A stretch of 64,000 nt of DNA, taken from the NCBI GenBank assembly GCA_001803205.1, contig MHBE01000005.1:62001-126000 (forward strand), given 5' to 3'. Below, in pieces: positions 18,274-27,861 of the stretch. Each line of letters starts with the position of its first letter. Position 1 is the first letter of the stretch. Origin of the DNA: Lentisphaerae bacterium GWF2_38_69 (lineage in GTDB: Bacteria; Verrucomicrobiota; Lentisphaeria; Victivallales; GWF2-38-69). A program made the position numbers and the translations under genes. The notes under the pieces are model-generated. The model did no database searches. It saw nothing but the letters and a program-made list of their open reading frames with translations, and was not told the DNA's origin.

Positions 18274-18319
18274 AGGGCAATTCCTGTCAGATACAGCTCG
18301 AAGACAAAGGAGGATGAAA

Positions 18320-19783
18320 ATGAAGAAAACTAAATTTAGCGGGAAAATTTTAGTCATCGGGTGCGGTTCTGTATCACGATGCACTTTGCCTCTTCTGCTG
18401 AAACACATTGATATTAATCCCAAAAAAATAACTGTCATAGATTTTGCTGACTGTCGTGAGTACATATCTGATTCAATCCAGACAGGGGTAAATTACGATA
18501 TTGTTAAAATAACTCCTGAAAATATGCACTCAGTCCTAAGTAAATACACTTCTTCAGGCGATATGATTGTTGATTTGGCATGGAATATTGACTGCTGCGA
18601 AATAATGCAATGGTGCCATAATCATGATGTAAAGTATGTCAATACTTCAGTGGAAGTATGGAATCCCTACGACAATAAAAAATATAAAACGCCCCAATCG
18701 AAAACTCTTTATGCCAGACACATGGCTATTCGCAAGATGACCGCTTCCTGGCATGTCAAAGGCCCTAGCATGATAGTCGAACATGGTGCTAATCCAGGGT
18801 TGGTTTCTCATTTTACAAAAATGGCATTGAAAGATATTGCGGAAAAAATAATTACAGAAAAACCTGACGATGAGCGATCAAAAATACTTCCTGACCTCAT
18901 TTCAAAAGGCGACTATCCAAATATAGCTAAACTTTCCGGAACGAAAGTTATCCATATTAGTGAACGCGATATGCAGATTACAAATAAACCCAAAGAAACT
19001 AATGAATTTGTCAATACCTGGAGCATAGAAGGATTGTATGAAGAGGGCATTGCTCCCGCGGAAATGGGATGGGGAACTCATGAAATGGAACTGCCAAACA
19101 ATGTTTTTTTACATAACGAAGGTCCGATGAACCAGATATGCCTTGAACAATGCGGGATAAGAACAAAAGTGCACTCATGGGTTCCTGCAGGAGAAATAAT
19201 TGGCTTTATGGTTAGGCATGGAGAGGCTTTTACAATATCGGACTATCTAACTGTCTGGGAAGAGAACAAAGCAGTTTATCGGCCAACGGTTCATTATGCC
19301 TACTGTTGTTCTGATTCGACTATTGCTTCGCTTCATGAGCTTGAGATGAGAAATTTCAATCTTCAGCCGAAACTAAGAATAATGACAGATGAAATAATAA
19401 GCGGAAAAGATGAATTGGGTGTGCTTTTAATGGGCCATGATTTTAAATCCTGGTGGTGTGGAAGTCTTCTTGACATTAACGATGCAAGGAGTCTGCTTCC
19501 TCATCAGAACGCAACTACTCTTCAGGTAGCAGCTTCAGTTCTTGCCGCGGTACTCTGGATGATAAAAAACCCTTCTGAAGGATTCCATGTCCCGGATGAA
19601 CTGCCGTATGAAGAAATCCTTGGTTATGCCAGACCATATTTAGGCCCGGTCGTTTCCCTTCAATCTGACTGGACTCCGATGAAAGACAGGAAAGAATTTT
19701 TCAGAAATTATGATTTTGAATCAGATGACAATTCAAAGCAAAACGGCGATATTGAGTGGCAATTTAAGGATTTTCTAGTTTAA
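18320..19783 (+). CDS. hss: Homospermidine synthase
   Basis: 487 residues, the bacterial Hss length. The enzyme makes sym-homospermidine from putrescine with NAD+. The N-terminal Rossmann motif ILVIGCGSVSRCTLPLL, the YVNTSVEVWNPYDN segment with the active-site tryptophan region, VEHGANPGLVSHF (about 155-167) and the WGTHE element fit Hss, not saccharopine dehydrogenase. Start is ATG 18320: AAAGGAGG lies 6 bases upstream, too close for ATG 18314. It precedes guanine deaminase by 38 bp. Confidence 0.92.
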   Translation: MKKTKFSGKILVIGCGSVSRCTLPLLLKHIDINPKKITVIDFADCREYISDSIQTGVNYDIVKITPENMHSVLSKYTSSGDMIVDLAWNIDCCEIMQWCHNHDVKYVNTSVEVWNPYDNKKYKTPQSKTLYARHMAIRKMTASWHVKGPSMIVEHGANPGLVSHFTKMALKDIAEKIITEKPDDERSKILPDLISKGDYPNIAKLSGTKVIHISERDMQITNKPKETNEFVNTWSIEGLYEEGIAPAEMGWGTHEMELPNNVFLHNEGPMNQICLEQCGIRTKVHSWVPAGEIIGFMVRHGEAFTISDYLTVWEENKAVYRPTVHYAYCCSDSTIASLHELEMRNFNLQPKLRIMTDEIISGKDELGVLLMGHDFKSWWCGSLLDINDARSLLPHQNATTLQVAASVLAAVLWMIKNPSEGFHVPDELPYEEILGYARPYLGPVVSLQSDWTPMKDRKEFFRNYDFESDDNSKQNGDIEWQFKDFLV

Positions 19784-21147: not shown

Positions 21148-22665
21148 TTAAATTTTGTTTCTGTATCTCTTCCTAATCATTTCCGATAAGAGGAAGAGCG
21201 TTATTATCACCAAGACACTAATCCCATTAAGTATTGAGCTTTCTATTATTCTTCTATCGCTCAGCATTGCGTAGTCAACTACCGGAACAGTTGGAAAGTA
21301 ATTTATCAGCTGCATAGTGTAAGCTATTGTGAATTCTCCGAAAACTATAGCAAAAATCTGGATAAAAACAGTTATAAATACCGGCATGAGAATTGGCAAT
21401 TCAATTAATTTAAATATCTGAAAAACCGAAGCCCCGTCCACTTTTGAAGCTTCAATTATTTCTGAAGGAAATCCTCTGATATGCTGATACATGAAGCTGT
21501 AGGCGATGGGAGCTGATATAATAAGATACCCGCACAGCACAAGCATTACATAAGGTATTGAATATCTTATATTCATATAAACAAGTACAATCCCAAGAAA
21601 CGCATTCGATATGCCGCATGCAGATAAAACTATCCAATCGGTAAATCTTGAATAGCTTTTAAGCAATAAGTAAACAAGAACAACAACAGCCAGAGCTGTG
21701 AGTGTACTTAAAATAAAAGAGTCTATAAGGCTCTTTAAAACAGGATAATATGCGTTGAGCCCAGCGGAGAATAAAGTTATTATACCAGAAAAATCAAATC
21801 TGCCGGTGTAAAAGTTATAGAAAGCAAAAATAAGTCCGGAGGTTACTATAAAAAATTCAAAAAACACATAAAGAGCTGTAAAGAGCATTGAAAATCTTGA
21901 TGATTTGAAAGGTTTTCTTTCTGAATGATCGCTTTCATAAGAGGAAGCTAGACCAGGAAGAAAACTTATAAATGACAGAATTATAAACTGAATTATTCCG
22001 TAACCAAGAGCTTTTGAAAGGTTCATGCTGCTGCTCAGAGTAGTAGCAATCTCCACTTCAAGAGTAGAAAACTTGATTCCTCCCAGTCCTAATACAATTG
22101 CAAAATTTGTAAAACAGAATGCAAAACAGAGGAAAAAAGCCTTTAGAAGTGAAGGCATCACCATTGGAAGTTTTATTCTGAAAAATATTCTTATGCTTCC
22201 TGCTCCTTCAAGGCAGGCATTTTCTATTATGGAGACAGGAATGTTTCGTAATGCTTCTCCGATATATTTAACAAAGATGGGAGAGTTATAGAAGACATTC
22301 GCAACAACGATTATTCCGAGAGTATAGAGAAGATTAAACGGTTTCAAAAAAGGAAAATTTCCTATTATGGAAAAAGCCACAACAGTGGAAACAGCAGGAA
22401 AAAAAAATGGGATAAAAATCGTGCTTTCAGCAAAAAAGCTGATATAAGAGTTTGATTTGGAAATATAATTTGATGGAATTAATGCCACTGCCAAGGCTAT
22501 AAAAGTTGACAGAAAAGCCTGAAAAAAAGTAAATTGTGCTACTTTGAATGTATATGAGGTGAAAAGGCTTTGAAGGACTCCCGCTCCAAGATTATAAAAA
22601 CAAAATACTCCGAATGGCACCAACCATATTAGTAGGAAAAAGAAATTTAAAGTAAATTTTCTCAC
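21148..22665 (-). CDS. thiP: Thiamine-type ABC transporter permease (two fused halves)
   Basis: 505 residues with about twelve transmembrane helices. Two ATPase-contact EAA loops are seen, EALRNIPVSIIENACLEGAG (about 163-182) and IRGFPSEIIEASKVDGAS (about 392-409), so both permease halves are in one chain as in ThiP/FbpB. It starts 9 bp after the binding-protein stop, downstream of the TPP riboswitch; that context assigns thiamine or a precursor as substrate. No ATPase gene follows: the next gene is convergent guaD. The motor must come from elsewhere. Confidence 0.82.
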   Translation of the reverse strand: MRKFTLNFFFLLIWLVPFGVFCFYNLGAGVLQSLFTSYTFKVAQFTFFQAFLSTFIALAVALIPSNYISKSNSYISFFAESTIFIPFFFPAVSTVVAFSIIGNFPFLKPFNLLYTLGIIVVANVFYNSPIFVKYIGEALRNIPVSIIENACLEGAGSIRIFFRIKLPMVMPSLLKAFFLCFAFCFTNFAIVLGLGGIKFSTLEVEIATTLSSSMNLSKALGYGIIQFIILSFISFLPGLASSYESDHSERKPFKSSRFSMLFTALYVFFEFFIVTSGLIFAFYNFYTGRFDFSGIITLFSAGLNAYYPVLKSLIDSFILSTLTALAVVVLVYLLLKSYSRFTDWIVLSACGISNAFLGIVLVYMNIRYSIPYVMLVLCGYLIISAPIAYSFMYQHIRGFPSEIIEASKVDGASVFQIFKLIELPILMPVFITVFIQIFAIVFGEFTIAYTMQLINYFPTVPVVDYAMLSDRRIIESSILNGISVLVIITLFLLSEMIRKRYRNKI

Positions 22666-22674
22666 GCGGCAGTA

Positions 22675-23667
22675 TCAATAAGTCATTAATTCTGTCCACT
22701 TGTTCATCCAGATTTGTAAATCAGCTGCTAGTTCTTCATTGGGAATGTGTTTGTACTTTTCAGGATTCCTGTAATACTTGAAAACCTCGGGCAATTTTAC
22801 ATCTGTAACTGGCATCATCCAGTTGTTAAGCGGTATAGCCTGCTGAACTTCATCTGTCAGGCAGAAATCTATAAACTTTCTAGCTTTATCGTTTATATCT
22901 TTTTTTCTTACGAGGGCGTTAGCTTCAATTTCCATATAACCGCCTTCTTCTGGTATAAAAACTTTATACTTGTCACTTTTATATGTGTATATGGAAAAGG
23001 CTTCATCTGAAGCATAGCTTACCATCATTGCTGCTTCGCCTGTTTCAAATTTGGCAAAACATGAATTCCAGTCGGGAGTAATTGTTATTATTGCTCCCTT
23101 CAGGCGTTTCCAGTAATCAAGCCAGTTATTTCCATAAACAGCTATTGTCCAGAAAAGGAAATCCTGTCCAGTTGTGGAAGTTCTCGGATCAGGCATAACA
23201 ATTGATTTTTTAAGTTTTGTAATATCTTCAAAACTTTTCAGCGGAATTTTAATTTTCTCAGGGTCATAGATGAAGGCAAGGCCGCCGAAATCAAACATTG
23301 TTGCTTTGAATTCAGGGGAGATGGTATTACCTGGAGCTTTAATTTTGGTATAGGTTGCAGGCCTGTAAGGTTCAAGGAGATTTAATTTATCGGCCTCCAG
23401 AAACGAAACCTGATTTAACCCCATGACAATATCTGCCTTGGGATATTCTTTCTCAAGAGAAAGCCTGACTACAATTTTTGAAGATCCTTCAAAATAAATA
23501 CCTTTGACTTTTACATCATTGTCAGCTTCAAACTTAGAAATTAATCCGCTTTTAAAAAGCCAAATGTATTCACTGGGCATATAAACAGTCAGAACATCCT
23601 GATTTTTTGAGCATGATGCTATTAAAAGAATACATATGATTGAGATTGTTCTTATAAGATTTTTCAT
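22675..23667 (-). CDS. thiB: Thiamine ABC transporter substrate-binding lipoprotein
   Basis: 330 residues from ATG 23667, which has AGAAAGGAA upstream. Lipobox IASC at about residue 19. The fold is a type 2 periplasmic binding protein of the TbpA/FbpA group: LTVYMPSEYI at the mature N-terminus, DFGGLAFIYDPEKI, PDPRTSTTGQDFLFW and EANALVRKKDINDKARKFIDFCLTDEVQ in two adjoining pieces. Similar proteins carry iron or spermidine; the TPP riboswitch directly upstream points to thiamine. Confidence 0.83.
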   Translation of the reverse strand: MKNLIRTISIICILLIASCSKNQDVLTVYMPSEYIWLFKSGLISKFEADNDVKVKGIYFEGSSKIVVRLSLEKEYPKADIVMGLNQVSFLEADKLNLLEPYRPATYTKIKAPGNTISPEFKATMFDFGGLAFIYDPEKIKIPLKSFEDITKLKKSIVMPDPRTSTTGQDFLFWTIAVYGNNWLDYWKRLKGAIITITPDWNSCFAKFETGEAAMMVSYASDEAFSIYTYKSDKYKVFIPEEGGYMEIEANALVRKKDINDKARKFIDFCLTDEVQQAIPLNNWMMPVTDVKLPEVFKYYRNPEKYKHIPNEELAADLQIWMNKWTELMTY

Positions 23668-23694
23668 ATTCTGTTCCTTTCTAAGATTATATTG

Positions 23695-23727
23695 CAAAAA
23701 AAAACCTTCCGTCGAAAGGGAAGGTTT
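23695..23727 (-). terminator. Riboswitch-controlled intrinsic terminator
   Basis: Minus-strand stem AAACCTTCC / GGAAGGTTT with an 8-nt loop and nine T's. It sits between the TPP aptamer and thiB, so ligand binding probably lets this hairpin form and stops transcription. Confidence 0.85.
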
Positions 23728-23735
23728 AATATATT

Positions 23736-23823
23736 CCTACGCTGGCATTACCCAGATCAGGTTTTATGGTCGAGACTAGAACCCATCTCCTCTCAGCCGA
23801 AAAATATCAGCTCCCATTCGGTG
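23736..23823 (-). ncRNA. TPP riboswitch (THI element)
   Basis: On the minus strand the conserved CTGAGA (23796-23791) and the second THI segment ACCTGATCTGGGTAATGCC plus AGCGTAGG (about 23762-23736) are present, separated by a variable arm. These match the universally conserved TPP-binding core. Followed by a terminator, so regulation is at transcription of the thiB-thiP pair. Confidence 0.96.
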
Positions 23824-23847
23824 TAATTGTAAAAGAACTTATGCAGC

Positions 23848-23926: not shown

Positions 23927-25186
23927 CTAGAAGGCATCTATCTTTAATTGAATATCCCTAATGGATTTTGAATATAAATCGACAATATCAGTTTCATTAT
24001 TTAACGGATGAACAATAAAGTTTCCCAGAACCCAGCTGTCATAGTCATCAGGTGGAAGCTTAATTATTTTTCCAGGATAAGATGTCAGGTTTAACGCCAG
24101 TACTTTTTTATCTTTGATCAGCGCTGAAGCATCTATGTTTTTAAGCACTCCTTCTTTATCGGCGAATATCCTGAAAGCAATCATATTCAGAATGGATCTA
24201 TAATCTTTTGGCATAATTTTGCAGCCGGAAGCGTAATTGATTGCCATTTCAATAATATTCTGTTCCGTGGCTGCAAAAAGTAAGGATGGCAAACAGTCTC
24301 CTCCAGGTCTTGGCGCAATTTCAATAAGAAAGATTTCATTGTTCTTTACTATAAAATCAATCATGCATATGGATTTATTTATACCTAAGGAAGTTCCTGC
24401 TTTATTCAATGTAGCAATTAAATTTTCATGTGTAACTTCGGGAATTGTATTAATAAGCTTGTATCCGGCTATTATTCCAAAAGGTAGAGAGCATGATGAT
24501 TTTATCTTTTGGGTAAGTCGTATGATTTGAACAGAATTATTTTCAATCATGAAATCGCAGCTGTATTCTATGCCTTCTATAAATTCTTCAGCCAATATTA
24601 CTAGCTTATCTGTTTTAAAGAGTCTGTTATCCTGTCTTGCTTTGAGGCCGGCAATGATTTGTTCGAATCTTTTTATAATATCTTCTGATGTCCGGCACAG
24701 ATAAACAAGTTCGCTGCCGGCTCCGGATAATGGCTTTAGAACACAGGGACTTTCTAAAGTTTCAAAAAATAAAATAGCGTCTTCTTTCGAATAAAGAAGA
24801 GAGTATCGAGGCGTTTTGAGCCCGGCTTTTTTCCATGCTTCTTTTGAGAGGAATTTATTTCTTGAACTTCTAATTGTTTCTGAGGATTGAAAGAAGACAT
24901 TAAAATGTTTGCCTATTAATGAGGCAAGTTCCAAAGATTCACAGTCATAGCAGGCTATACCGTTTATTGATAATGAGTATCTATTTAAATGGTCTATTAA
25001 ATCAGAAATGGCCTGATTAGCATTAGATAAATCAGAACAGACTTCTTTCGGTAAATCAGGAACAGGTTCTATTGCATTTTTCCTGAGTTTTATATCTGTT
25101 AAAAATAATACTCTGCTGCCGGCAAATGAGTCGATAGCGTTAATATAGTCAGGAGTAGTCCCGACTATCAGAACTTTAGCATCCAT
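23927..25186 (-). CDS. ATP-grasp carboxylate-amine ligase of unknown substrate
   Basis: 419 residues from ATG 25186 (AGGA four bases upstream). Fold order is that of ATP-grasp ligases: a Rossmann-like N-terminal part (KVLIVGTTPDY), ATP-binding lysine in CVLKPLSGAGSELVYLC (about 150), the EEFIEGIEYSCDFMI strand (about 205) and the metal-binding IDFIVKNNEIFLIEIAPRPGGD near 280-300, given here in pieces: glutamates then RPGGD. These enzymes join a carboxylate to an amine through an acyl phosphate. The gene overlaps the upstream GNAT stop by 11 bp; together they sit behind a sigma-54 promoter. Substrate not known. Confidence 0.85.
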   Translation of the reverse strand: MDAKVLIVGTTPDYINAIDSFAGSRVLFLTDIKLRKNAIEPVPDLPKEVCSDLSNANQAISDLIDHLNRYSLSINGIACYDCESLELASLIGKHFNVFFQSSETIRSSRNKFLSKEAWKKAGLKTPRYSLLYSKEDAILFFETLESPCVLKPLSGAGSELVYLCRTSEDIIKRFEQIIAGLKARQDNRLFKTDKLVILAEEFIEGIEYSCDFMIENNSVQIIRLTQKIKSSCSLPFGIIAGYKLINTIPEVTHENLIATLNKAGTSLGINKSICMIDFIVKNNEIFLIEIAPRPGGDCLPSLLFAATEQNIIEMAINYASGCKIMPKDYRSILNMIAFRIFADKEGVLKNIDASALIKDKKVLALNLTSYPGKIIKLPPDDYDSWVLGNFIVHPLNNETDIVDLYSKSIRDIQLKIDAF

Positions 25187-26141
25187 ATGTTCCTGTTCTG
25201 TCCTTAACATGCTCTAGAGGTATTTCTTTGGCTGTATGGAGTTTTATTTCATATAGAGGTTTGGAAGAGAGATGGAAGCGTTCTTTCCAGCCGAAATCAC
25301 CGCACAGGAAGTCTATTTTGTCAAATTTATTATTTGAAGCCCATTCGATATGATGGAAATTTATCAGTTTGGCTATGCCGGTAAATTCAGGATTTGTGCC
25401 GCCAGCAAGAACAACATATTCTTTATTATAAACAGTGCCAATATCTACTGCCGCTGTTTTTTCTCCGACAGTAACTGTCGTTATCCGAAGCATATTTTTG
25501 TCCCACAGGTATTTTATAAGGGATTCAAAAGAATTGAAAAACCTATTGTCTGTGAAGTATGAATGTTCTCCAAATGCAGAGAGGTTCATTTCAAAAAGAG
25601 TATCAATATCTTCGAGCTTATTATATCTTATAAGAGCTCCCTGAGCATAGAATTTGTCGATTTCTTTTGAGAGATTCTTGCGCGACTTTCCGGAGAATTT
25701 CTGCATGTACTGGTCAAAAGAGTAGTTATATTCCCCAGGGTAAAGATGGTAATTTATTTCATCAACAGTTAATGATTCGTTAAAATAGAGGCTGTTAGCG
25801 CACATATAACGGATATGGATTGGACCAGGGGCATTATCAATAAGGATTTGGAAGGCGTTGTTATCGCAGGCATAGGCTTTATTCTGCTCCAGCCATGTTT
25901 TCCCGCTCCATGATTCACCAGGGAAAAACGAATAAAAGCCTGACTCCTCTATCCAGCTTAACGGCAGTATTCCTTGTACCTCTCCGTCATTTTCAAGAAT
26001 CAGGAAATCGTTATTCCTTTGAAATGAGTCTGAAAAACATTTTCTTATATCCCATAAGTCAAAAATGCTTGACGCCTCAATGTATTTTTTCCATATACAC
26101 GCGCACTCTTCGATATCTTCAACCGCCTTCAATGTATACAT
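25176..26141 (-). CDS. GNAT/FemAB-like acyl- or aminoacyltransferase (Acetyltransf_6/BioF2 type)
   Basis: 321 residues. The layout is that of the double-GNAT FemAB/CelD-like group: an N-terminal GNAT half with FLILENDGEVQGILPLSW (about 43-60), a central helical segment FSGKSRKNLSKEID (about 148-161), and a C-terminal half with VGEKTAAVDIGTVYNKEYVV and FHHIEWASNNKFDKIDFLCG. Family members move acyl groups or amino acids onto amines in envelope or secondary metabolites. It begins the two-gene operon with the ATP-grasp ligase; GGAGG lies 12 bases before the ATG. The exact reaction is unknown. Confidence 0.75.
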   Translation of the reverse strand: MYTLKAVEDIEECACIWKKYIEASSIFDLWDIRKCFSDSFQRNNDFLILENDGEVQGILPLSWIEESGFYSFFPGESWSGKTWLEQNKAYACDNNAFQILIDNAPGPIHIRYMCANSLYFNESLTVDEINYHLYPGEYNYSFDQYMQKFSGKSRKNLSKEIDKFYAQGALIRYNKLEDIDTLFEMNLSAFGEHSYFTDNRFFNSFESLIKYLWDKNMLRITTVTVGEKTAAVDIGTVYNKEYVVLAGGTNPEFTGIAKLINFHHIEWASNNKFDKIDFLCGDFGWKERFHLSSKPLYEIKLHTAKEIPLEHVKDRTGTYGC

Positions 26142-26212
26142 TTTATAAAGGCTACCTCCATTATGTATTATTTTACCGAATATTATCAGCTAAACTTGAT
26201 AAAAACATTTTA

Positions 26213-26228
26213 GCAAATATTATGCCAA
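26213..26228 (-). promoter_or_regulatory. Sigma-54 (-24/-12) promoter of the GNAT/ATP-grasp operon
   Basis: Minus strand TGGCATAATATTTGCT. It fits the consensus TGGCAYRNNNNTTGCW, with the invariant GG and GC exactly 10 bp apart. Initiation would be near 26201, giving a leader of about 60 nt. I found no other such site in the intergenic regions of the window. Confidence 0.8.
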
Positions 26229-26361: not shown

Positions 26362-26418
26362 ATATAGGTATTATAATACTTAAATAATTTTAATAATACG
26401 GTAATAAAATACCTATAT
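26362..26418. promoter_or_regulatory. Imperfect inverted repeat, candidate activator-binding site
   Basis: Arms ATATAGGTATTATAATAC (26362-26379) and GTAATAAAATACCTATAT (26401-26418) match at 16 of 18 positions around a 21-bp centre. It lies about 135-190 bp upstream of the sigma-54 promoter, the usual enhancer distance, and just before the activator gene, so it could also serve autoregulation. Confidence 0.5.
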
Positions 26419-26448: not shown

Positions 26449-27861
26449 ATGAAAATCAGATTGCTTTTAGCTGTTAAAGACAGAAAACTAGAAAAATATC
26501 TGGAAGACTATTTTTCAATGCCTGATATAGAGGTCAAATGCCTCGGTCAGTTAAAATCTGCCTGGCAGAAACTCGTAAGAAGCTGCGGAGATATAATAGT
26601 TATAAGTGAAGAGCATATACCTATTTCTCTTGAAGCAAATATTGCTCTGCTCAATTCTCTTCCTGAGACTCCTACAACAATTCTTCTTCATAATAGAGAT
26701 TCATCCGAAGAAAATGCCAAATTACTGGCGTCAGGAGCAGACACTGTGCTTTTTGTGGGAATTCAGGATGTGAGCATAGCTGAAGCCATATATGCGTCGA
26801 TAGAATCAAGAAGGAAATTTTATTCCCAAAACAGAATAAGTGATTACAAGCTTAAAACTTCCCCAAAGTTAACCGACTTTAACTCCTTAAATCAGAAGAT
26901 GAGGATGTTCATGGATGAGGTGCAGCAGATTATACCAAATGACACTCCGCTTCTAATCTTGGGGGAAACTGGAGTAGGGAAAGAACACCTGGCAAAAATA
27001 ATACACGCGGAAAGTCCTAGATCCAGAGGCCCATTCATTCCTGTTAATATAGCCGGATTACCAGAACAGTTACTAGAGAGTGAACTTTTTGGTCACGAAC
27101 AGGGTGCTTTTACAGGAGCTATAAGATCCAGGCGCGGCGCGTTTGAACTAGCTCATAATGGAACGATTTTTCTGGATGAAATTGGAGAGATGCCATTACA
27201 TCTTCAGGCAAAATTGCTCCGAGTCCTTCAGGACTATGAACTCAAGCCTGTTGGGGGCGAGAAGTCAATATGGGTTAATGTAAGAGTAATAGCAGCGACA
27301 AATAGAATAGTTGAAGAAGAAGTAAATAAAGGGACTTTCAGGAAAGACCTTTTTTACAGACTCAATGTTGTTACCCTCACTGTTCCACCATTAAGAGAAC
27401 GGCCTGAAGATATTCCGCAGATAGCTAAGAATTTTGTTGAACTTTACAGGAAGAAATACTCAAAGCGCTCAGTTTCGATTTCAGATAACGCCATGAAGGC
27501 TTTATCTTCCTACGATTGGCCTGGAAATGTTAGAGAGTTGATGAATGTAATCGAAAGATTAGTGATTCTTTCAAAAGGGCAGACAATAACACTTGATCAG
27601 CTTCCAAGGAACTTCAGCGATAATCAGTCAATGCTGTCTAATGCTCTTCATGCGAAAACTGCGCCTTCCTCATGGGATAATAAAACAATGCCGGAAGTAA
27701 TAACTGAAGCTATTTCAGAGATAGAAAAACTATATATCCAGTCAGTTTTGACTAAAACAAAAGGAAGAGTCGGCGAAGCTGCAAAAATAGCAGGCGTTCA
27801 TCCGCGCGGCTTCTACGGAAAAATGAAAGATTATTCGATATCTAAAGAAAATTTCAAATGA
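26449..27861 (+). CDS. Sigma-54-dependent transcriptional activator with degenerate receiver domain
   Basis: 470 residues from ATG 26449 (GAGGAG at 26436-26441). The AAA+ core is complete: Walker A LGETGVGKE, ESELFGHEQGAFTGA with the sigma-54-contacting GAFTGA loop, Walker B GTIFLDEIGEMP, and sensor AATNR. The C-terminus has a Fis-type helix-turn-helix (GRVGEAAKIAGVHPRGFYGK). Residues 1-125 have the shape of a receiver, but the phosphoacceptor position after DIIVI is Ser53-Glu54, and the acidic pair of strand 1 is reduced to one Asp. Control by phosphorylation is therefore doubtful. No kinase is adjacent. It faces away from the sigma-54 promoter it probably activates. Confidence 0.92.
   Translation: MKIRLLLAVKDRKLEKYLEDYFSMPDIEVKCLGQLKSAWQKLVRSCGDIIVISEEHIPISLEANIALLNSLPETPTTILLHNRDSSEENAKLLASGADTVLFVGIQDVSIAEAIYASIESRRKFYSQNRISDYKLKTSPKLTDFNSLNQKMRMFMDEVQQIIPNDTPLLILGETGVGKEHLAKIIHAESPRSRGPFIPVNIAGLPEQLLESELFGHEQGAFTGAIRSRRGAFELAHNGTIFLDEIGEMPLHLQAKLLRVLQDYELKPVGGEKSIWVNVRVIAATNRIVEEEVNKGTFRKDLFYRLNVVTLTVPPLRERPEDIPQIAKNFVELYRKKYSKRSVSISDNAMKALSSYDWPGNVRELMNVIERLVILSKGQTITLDQLPRNFSDNQSMLSNALHAKTAPSSWDNKTMPEVITEAISEIEKLYIQSVLTKTKGRVGEAAKIAGVHPRGFYGKMKDYSISKENFK

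Follow-up and report, generated by a model that had tools for sequence, protein, structure and literature searches.

A sigma-54 promoter and divergent activator at a GNAT/ATP-grasp gene pair of a Lentisphaerae bacterium: a reduced copy of a conserved cassette that may build a putrescine-type amide

In the argolaphos antibiotic cluster of Streptomyces monomycini, an ATP-grasp protein of the PRK02186 type (AlpC) and a GNAT protein of the PF13480 family (AlpF) have been proposed to attach amino acids through amide bonds; the authors term such GNATs peptide aminoacyl tRNA ligases and do not assign the individual bonds to either enzyme (PMC8976061). The same two family labels apply to a pair of genes in the stretch of DNA analyzed here, 64,000 nucleotides of contig MHBE01000005.1 (positions 62,001 to 126,000, forward strand) of Lentisphaerae bacterium GWF2_38_69, hereafter the window. 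This pair, a tandem-GNAT transferase gene and an ATP-grasp carboxylate-amine ligase gene, lies behind a candidate sigma-54 promoter and opposite a sigma-54 activator gene. Judged from gene content and order, it is a reduced copy of a conserved cassette whose relatives add an S-adenosylmethionine (AdoMet) decarboxylase-family protein, SpeDC, and a pyridoxal phosphate (PLP) decarboxylase, PLPdc. The argolaphos cluster differs in that it serves a phosphonate pathway, and its gene table lists no SpeD-like protein, alanine-racemase-fold PLP decarboxylase or sigma-54 activator (PMC8976061).

Other described systems share single features with the cassette. FemX and Sba18/Sbb17, the latter aminoacyl-tRNA-dependent peptide synthases solved with streptothrisamine, are the closest folds to the GNAT protein; the window GNAT, 11–12% identical to them, is likened to them by its model fold. 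In butirosin biosynthesis, the ATP-grasp enzyme BtrJ ligates an amino acid and BtrK decarboxylates the ligated residue. The cassette resembles this succession of ATP-grasp ligation and decarboxylation by an alanine-racemase-fold PLP enzyme, and its PLPdc matches BtrK; the butirosin pair, however, acts on an acyl carrier protein, and none was seen by eye among the recurrent neighbors of the cassette. The pyruvoyl L-ornithine decarboxylases named SpeDC have their family, catalytic residues and diagnostic residues in common with the SpeDC of the cassette, but the contexts described for them are speD/speE, casdh/casdc or hss, and the terms ATP-grasp and acetyltransferase do not occur in that paper (PMC10407285). 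PspA-linked operons likewise unite an ATP-grasp ligase with a SpeD-family enzyme, an AdoMet decarboxylase, in one operon type; there, the ligase is glutathionylspermidine-synthetase-like and by its description of another family, membrane and chaperone genes are present, and the text names no GNAT (PMC11237479). Among the papers listed in literature searches on the gene combination, none was recognized as describing this four-gene set; the amidoligase survey of Iyer et al. 2009, cited in PMC8976061 and outside the coverage of these searches, may figure the neighborhood.

The GNAT gene (25176–26141, minus strand; Pfam match, alignment, AlphaFold2 model and fold search) comprises 321 codons from ATG 26141. 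The ATP-grasp gene (23927–25186, minus strand; Pfam, NCBIfam and solved-structure matches) probably starts at ATG 25186, which has AGGA four bases ahead and hence a better ribosome site than the start of the longest open reading frame (ORF) at 25210. An earlier note on this DNA, made from the sequence, had described an overlap of 11 bp; this holds from ATG 25186 and becomes 35 bp from 25210. The note had also proposed a two-enzyme operon: the pair is present in the window as described, but the full operon normally has four genes.

Profile annotation of 26 relative loci (loci, genomes and contigs carry L, G and C numbers) gave the order SpeDC-GNAT-ATPgrasp-PLPdc, all on one strand. GNAT was present in 26 loci, ATP-grasp in 25, PLPdc in 24 (the two absences fall at contig ends) and SpeDC in 23, counting as present a GNAT in two pieces (L012) and genes cut at contig ends (PLPdc in L010, ATP-grasp in L043, GNAT in L052). 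Having been chosen by GNAT similarity, these loci cannot count as an unbiased sample. L052 stands in for L013, which lies on the same contig; duplicates, paralogue or short loci (L001, L002, L015–L017, L021, L022, L024–L038, the last being a partial second GNAT of G767) were not surveyed, and L053–L080 are later additions or were fetched for other questions. Pairwise identities covary between ATP-grasp and PLPdc (rho 0.83), GNAT and ATP-grasp (0.76), GNAT and activator (0.73), and PLPdc and activator (0.54), and for pairs involving the short SpeDC rho is 0.24–0.46. A first scan of a GTDB-based collection, which reaches close relatives only, had yielded 12 relatives, by name nine Desulfobacterota, one 'Proteobacteria', one Nitrospirae and one Hydrogenedentota. 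At E 1e-20, GNAT was detected in 2 of the 387 genomes searched from the phylum of the window and in 14 of 395 from that of Desulfogranum; PLPdc was detected at E 1e-60 in 4 of the 387, both GNAT-bearing genomes included.

The candidate -24/-12 promoter, TGGCATAATATTTGCT (26212–26227, minus strand), has the exact GG-N10-GC spacing and lies 70 bases before the GNAT ATG. The activator gene, of the NtrC/enhancer-binding-protein (EBP) type (26449–27861, plus strand), has its best start at ATG 26449, preceded by GAGGAG, in divergent orientation and 221 bases from TGGCATAATATTTGCT; its identity rests on Pfam, alignments, an N-terminal model with fold search, and divergent orthologues. Both the 16-bp site and the divergent activator about 220 bp away had been claimed from the sequence and are confirmed here, with the distance of the site to GNAT corrected from 72 bp to 70. 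The genome also encodes RpoN, with one Sigma54_DBD match.

Within the window alone, TGGCATAATATTTGCT is statistically not decisive: it is the single match to the pattern TGGCAYNNNNNTTGCW in 64 kb, shuffling expects 0.14, and at least one match occurs in 13 of 100 window shuffles. Together with the 22% GC content of the very AT-rich activator-GNAT gap, these shuffles would fit a coincidental match and an operon read by sigma-70 holoenzyme. Over the whole genome, TGGCAYNNNNNTTGCW has 16 matches versus 2 for the reversed pattern; an ammonium-transporter-like gene, so identified from its translation, follows one of the 16 at a distance of about 50 bp. A divergent activator orthologue stands beside the operon in 14 of the 26 relative loci, and a fifteenth, L009, shows a fragment of it; matches below 600 bits, such as that of L042 (302 bits), were not counted. 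A GG-N10-GC site agreeing with the consensus at 10 or more of 13 positions is found in 15 of 15 activator-operon gaps, namely those 14 loci and the window, L009 being excluded because its activator is only a fragment at a contig edge; in 14 of these gaps, no more than 520 bp separate the site from the first gene. L072, from outside the original survey, has an 11/13 site 85 bp before SpeDC. Among loci with upstream sequence and no adjacent activator (L011, L023, L042, L043, L044, L048, L050 and L051), such a site within 520 bp occurs in one of eight, L050. L006 and L012, whose contigs end about 590 bp upstream, both have a site of at least 10/13. The gap ranges from 307 to 1577 bp across loci; the promoter lies 76–101 bp before SpeDC in L004, L005, L006, L010, L014 and L072, and 1247 bp from it in L049. 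Single-locus shuffle tests are weak for L003 (13 of 200 shuffles), L007 (8), L014 (6) and L049 (16). Because the site recurs in all 15 activator-linked gaps and in L072, and matches in the genome number 16 versus 2, a chance promoter was rejected, and transcription by sigma-70 holoenzyme from a fortuitous setting is highly improbable. The earlier note had made its proposal depend on the conservation of promoter and gene pair in relatives, and the survey does not refute it. The promoter architecture, and with it sigma-54 control of an operon switched on by the neighboring divergent activator, is thus well supported at the level of comparative sequence. Separately, the genome that harbors L012 carries activator, SpeDC and GNAT a second time, at L072 (2432–5911), where an open frame was seen for only the N-terminal part of the ATP-grasp gene.

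Upstream of the sigma-54 site, a palindrome, GGYAWWNNWWTRCC, recurs, and several loci have two or three copies of it spaced about 30 bp apart. In the window, GGTATTTTATTACC (minus-strand reading, 26400–26413) agrees at 12 of 12 positions and AGTATTATAATACC (minus-strand reading, 26367–26380), 33 bp from the first palindrome, at 11 of 12. Over 18 stretches, 38 matches at 10/12 were observed against 9.8 expected, and 17 at 11/12 against 0.86, an enrichment that is partly circular since nine of the same stretches served to derive the motif by eye. The nine stretches not used for it (L005, L007, L012, L039, L040, L046, L049, L050 and L052) gave 3 matches at 11/12, within two of the nine, against about 0.5 expected, and the held-out L072 has one palindrome upstream of its site, at 10/12. 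In the window alone, a palindrome match occurs in 19 of 100 shuffles; among the 16 genome TGGCAYNNNNNTTGCW sites, the window's is the only one with palindromes at 11/12 within 300 bp. We propose these palindromes as candidate activator-binding sites.

The activator contains Sigma54_activat, an AAA lid and a Fis-type helix-turn-helix (Pfam), with the GAFTGA motif present. Its N-terminus was assigned a receiver fold by structure modeling and a fold search. The phospho-acceptor column, located from the structure model where receiver strand 3 ends, holds Ser in 11 of 14 rows, including the window, Asn in two and Asp in one. The window's activator, with Ser in place of the phospho-acceptor Asp, thereby falls outside the two-component response regulators. 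A receiver-like domain of this kind suggests that the activator probably answers a ligand or partner rather than a kinase.

The window GNAT matches Acetyltransf_6 above the cut-off (66.5 bits), and its FemAB_like match is sub-threshold. In the AlphaFold2 model (mean pLDDT 82.4), the nearest folds are Sba18/Sbb17 (Z 18.0, root-mean-square deviation 3.5, 263 aligned) and FemX (Z 17.5). Weaker matches at Z 12–14 include MprF, mycothiol synthase and N-myristoyltransferase, and CoA-dependent tandem GNATs are among the lower-Z matches; the GNAT profile had 0 matches at E 0.01 among solved-structure sequences. The protein is therefore best described as FemX/Sba18-like and, by analogy of fold, which alone does not prove the donor, as of the aminoacyl-tRNA-dependent type. 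The FemAB-like transferase of the earlier note thus survives as a FemX-like fold in a protein whose family match is Acetyltransf_6, and its ATP-grasp partner stands.

A FemX-like fold would also suit modification of the envelope or an exopolysaccharide. Exosortase-A (XrtA/PEP-CTERM) loci combine a FemAB protein with a PLP decarboxylase and a sigma-54 regulator and are thus a functional parallel to the cassette. Sub-threshold matches point the same way, to TIGR03019 (XrtA-type FemAB; GNAT, 30.2 bits), TIGR02915 (PEP-CTERM-box response regulator; activator, 301.5 bits) and TIGR03099 (exosortase A-associated decarboxylase). Yet all XrtA-related scores fall under the curated cut-offs, and membership of the window GNAT in TIGR03019 was rejected against a cut-off of 260.35 bits; the L004 GNAT matches no NCBIfam model at E 0.001. 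Exosortase_EpsH was not found in the window's own genome, with a model that detects only 1 of 14 control genomes, and no glycosyltransferase family occurs in at least three loci among neighbor clusters inspected by eye, without Pfam. On this balance, an envelope function is unlikely.

The ATP-grasp domain scores over the gathering threshold, and the protein is PRK02186-like, under the cut-off of that model. Among solved structures, 4dim comes first, followed by the L-amino acid ligases 3vot (2.9e-23) and 4wd3, and BacD.

The first gene of the relatives' operon belongs to the AdoMet_dc family (Pfam) and is SpeDC-like. Its Ser, His and Cys are spaced as S63, H68 and C83 of the Thermotoga maritima protein, and Gln, Thr, Phe and Tyr, given as diagnostic for ornithine decarboxylase (Li et al., PMC10407285 section 7), are the same in all 10 rows. 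These columns are our own assignment, backed by the SpeD homologues L070 and L071: the same residues are shared by L070, beside an apparent speD-speE, and by the C-terminal half of the L071 SpeD-SpeD fusion. The SpeDC profile had 0 matches at E 0.001 among solved-structure sequences. From these residues, we infer that the relatives' SpeDC is a pyruvoyl ornithine decarboxylase making putrescine.

The best solved match of PLPdc is the N-citrylornithine decarboxylase 7kh2 (4.5e-35), followed by diaminopimelate decarboxylases and BtrK (5.5e-28). Membership in FslC (N-citrylornithine decarboxylase), an NCBIfam model named for rhizoferrin synthesis, was rejected, with 90.9 and 81 bits in relatives and 73.4 in the own genome against a cut-off of 500. 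The match to 7kh2 raises the alternative of a siderophore-like or antibiotic amide made without a nonribosomal peptide synthetase (NRPS), in which decarboxylated N-acyl-ornithine units would be joined by the ATP-grasp enzyme and aminoacylated by the GNAT; the PRK02186-type ATP-grasp and PF13480 GNAT pair of the argolaphos cluster is in line with it (PMC8976061). Such a product appears quite unlikely, as no exporter, receptor or NRPS-independent siderophore (NIS)-type synthetase occurs in at least three loci among neighbor clusters judged by eye (flanks of 5–8 kb, some contigs short). A distant PLP decarboxylase relative also lies behind three tandem ATP-grasp genes in L080 (3452–8808), a different cluster with the same two enzyme kinds.

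Short, highly charged ORFs of 52–73 codons follow the sigma-54 site and precede SpeDC in L003 (7184–7342), L008 (7279–7464), L012 (393–554), L040 (6463–6654) and L049 (6546–6767), and L041, L045 and L046 have a charged N-terminal extension in frame with SpeDC. Such ORFs could be ligase substrates in a pathway of protein or peptide modification, and the fold shared with FemX and LF-transferase-like enzymes acts on peptides. Against this, the ORF is absent from the window's gap, where no plus-oriented ORF of at least 25 codons is found, there is no room for it where the promoter lies 76–101 bp before SpeDC, and none of the five charged ORFs tested has a Pfam match. We regard modification of a peptide as very unlikely.

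Instead, we give about even odds to the cassette being an inducible pathway for an intracellular putrescine-type amide carrying a ligated, partly decarboxylated amino acid and an aminoacyl group from tRNA. The divergent activator would bind the paired palindromes 138–185 bp upstream, as their position suggests, and open the sigma-54 promoter. SpeDC, the first enzyme in most relatives, would convert ornithine to putrescine, which elsewhere would come from general metabolism. The ATP-grasp ligase would then couple an amino acid to putrescine or a similar amine, possibly via the side-chain carboxylate, as in gamma-glutamyl amides; PLPdc would strip a carboxylate off the ligated residue, as N-citrylornithine decarboxylase and BtrK do; and the FemX-like GNAT would transfer an amino acid from aminoacyl-tRNA onto a free amine. 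Ligation, decarboxylation and aminoacylation are assigned from family and fold, and their proposed order is one that employs all four enzymes, modeled on the logic of BtrJ and BtrK. The end product would be a small basic amide, probably retained in the cell since no exporter recurs among the neighbor families. The amino-acid-containing molecule of the earlier note is supported in kind, the fold and family neighbors being mostly amide-bond-forming enzymes, but an SpeDC-like ornithine decarboxylase together with a PLP decarboxylase points, in our view, to a putrescine-type product more than to an envelope amide.

Several observations weigh against this reading. SpeDC and PLPdc do not adjoin the window's pair, and no AdoMet_dc (SpeD-family) match is present in its own genome, which is 95% complete, although the family is detected in 8 of 14 control genomes. 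The genome's own PLPdc lies 9 bp behind a DUF3857/transglutaminase gene, in a 9-kb locus without an 11/13 sigma-54 site, and this DUF3857/transglutaminase-PLPdc pair persists (63% identity) in G002, a member of the same family that has no GNAT; PLPdc may thus have another job in this family. A TetR-type gene replaces the activator in L044 (Pfam) and in L023, L043 and L048 (BLAST cluster). Finally, 4dim, the best solved ATP-grasp match, is annotated as a phosphoribosylglycinamide synthetase, two decarboxylases for one ornithine-derived product are not the simplest scheme, and the palindrome evidence is partly circular.

The own-genome PLPdc orthologue (E 4.8e-188) shares the contig with the GNAT gene, at a distance of about 51 kb, and lies 187 bp short of the contig end. 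The genome holds additional PLP decarboxylases with this fold, namely a lysA over its cut-off (C63) and one on C40 under every NCBIfam cut-off. SpeDC is also missing at L039, where the activator is present, and at L009, with its activator fragment, and none was found in the respective genomes (G559 and G393). Since some cassette genomes lack SpeDC, we read it as a supplier of putrescine, a common metabolite obtainable by other routes. Also in the window, a saccharopine-dehydrogenase-fold gene, which we take to be a bacterial homospermidine synthase, lies at 18314–19783 (plus strand), 4 kb from the ATP-grasp gene. PLPdc directly follows a DUF3857/transglutaminase-core protein of about 1270 residues in two genera of the family to which the window belongs (L018, 3740–8878; L079, 7276–12409).

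More tentatively, and with doubts prevailing, the product may represent an undescribed class of intracellular polyamine conjugates. The ATP-grasp enzyme would amidate putrescine with a side-chain-linked amino acid, whose subsequent decarboxylation would extend the amine by one omega-amino acyl unit before a cap is added from aminoacyl-tRNA, and the phosphate-blind receiver of the activator would sense a metabolite, which might be the product or reflect polyamine status. If so, such a conjugate would be the amide-built counterpart to the aminopropyl and carboxy-polyamine routes and would widen the known scope of polyamine metabolism and tRNA-dependent amide synthesis, and the activator would be a defined case of a sigma-54 activator whose receiver domain escapes the usual phosphorylation. 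The cassette is small and conserved, has a cleanly inducible promoter and occurs in a deposited strain, Desulfogranum marinum DSM 2058, so that its product can be sought directly.

The GC contents of the activator, GNAT and ATP-grasp genes (0.351–0.396) compare with 0.345–0.394 in 13 other listed genes, so that composition gives no clear sign of a recent transfer of the three genes, although the third-position value (GC3) of the GNAT gene, 0.385, is the highest of 16 genes (others 0.278–0.357). In relatives, homologous C39-peptidase-like proteins (by eye) lie near the cassette in L006 (4535–5281), L007 (11518–12243) and L043 (3167–3901), and a lysine 2,3-aminomutase with an ATP-grasp gene, also by eye, in L040 (12537–14823) and L041 (9016–12000). 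Beyond the ATP-grasp gene of the window, a thiamine pyrophosphate (TPP) riboswitch (23717–23827, minus strand, 58.7 bits) precedes genes for a thiamine-type ABC binding protein (22675–23697) and a permease (21148–22665).

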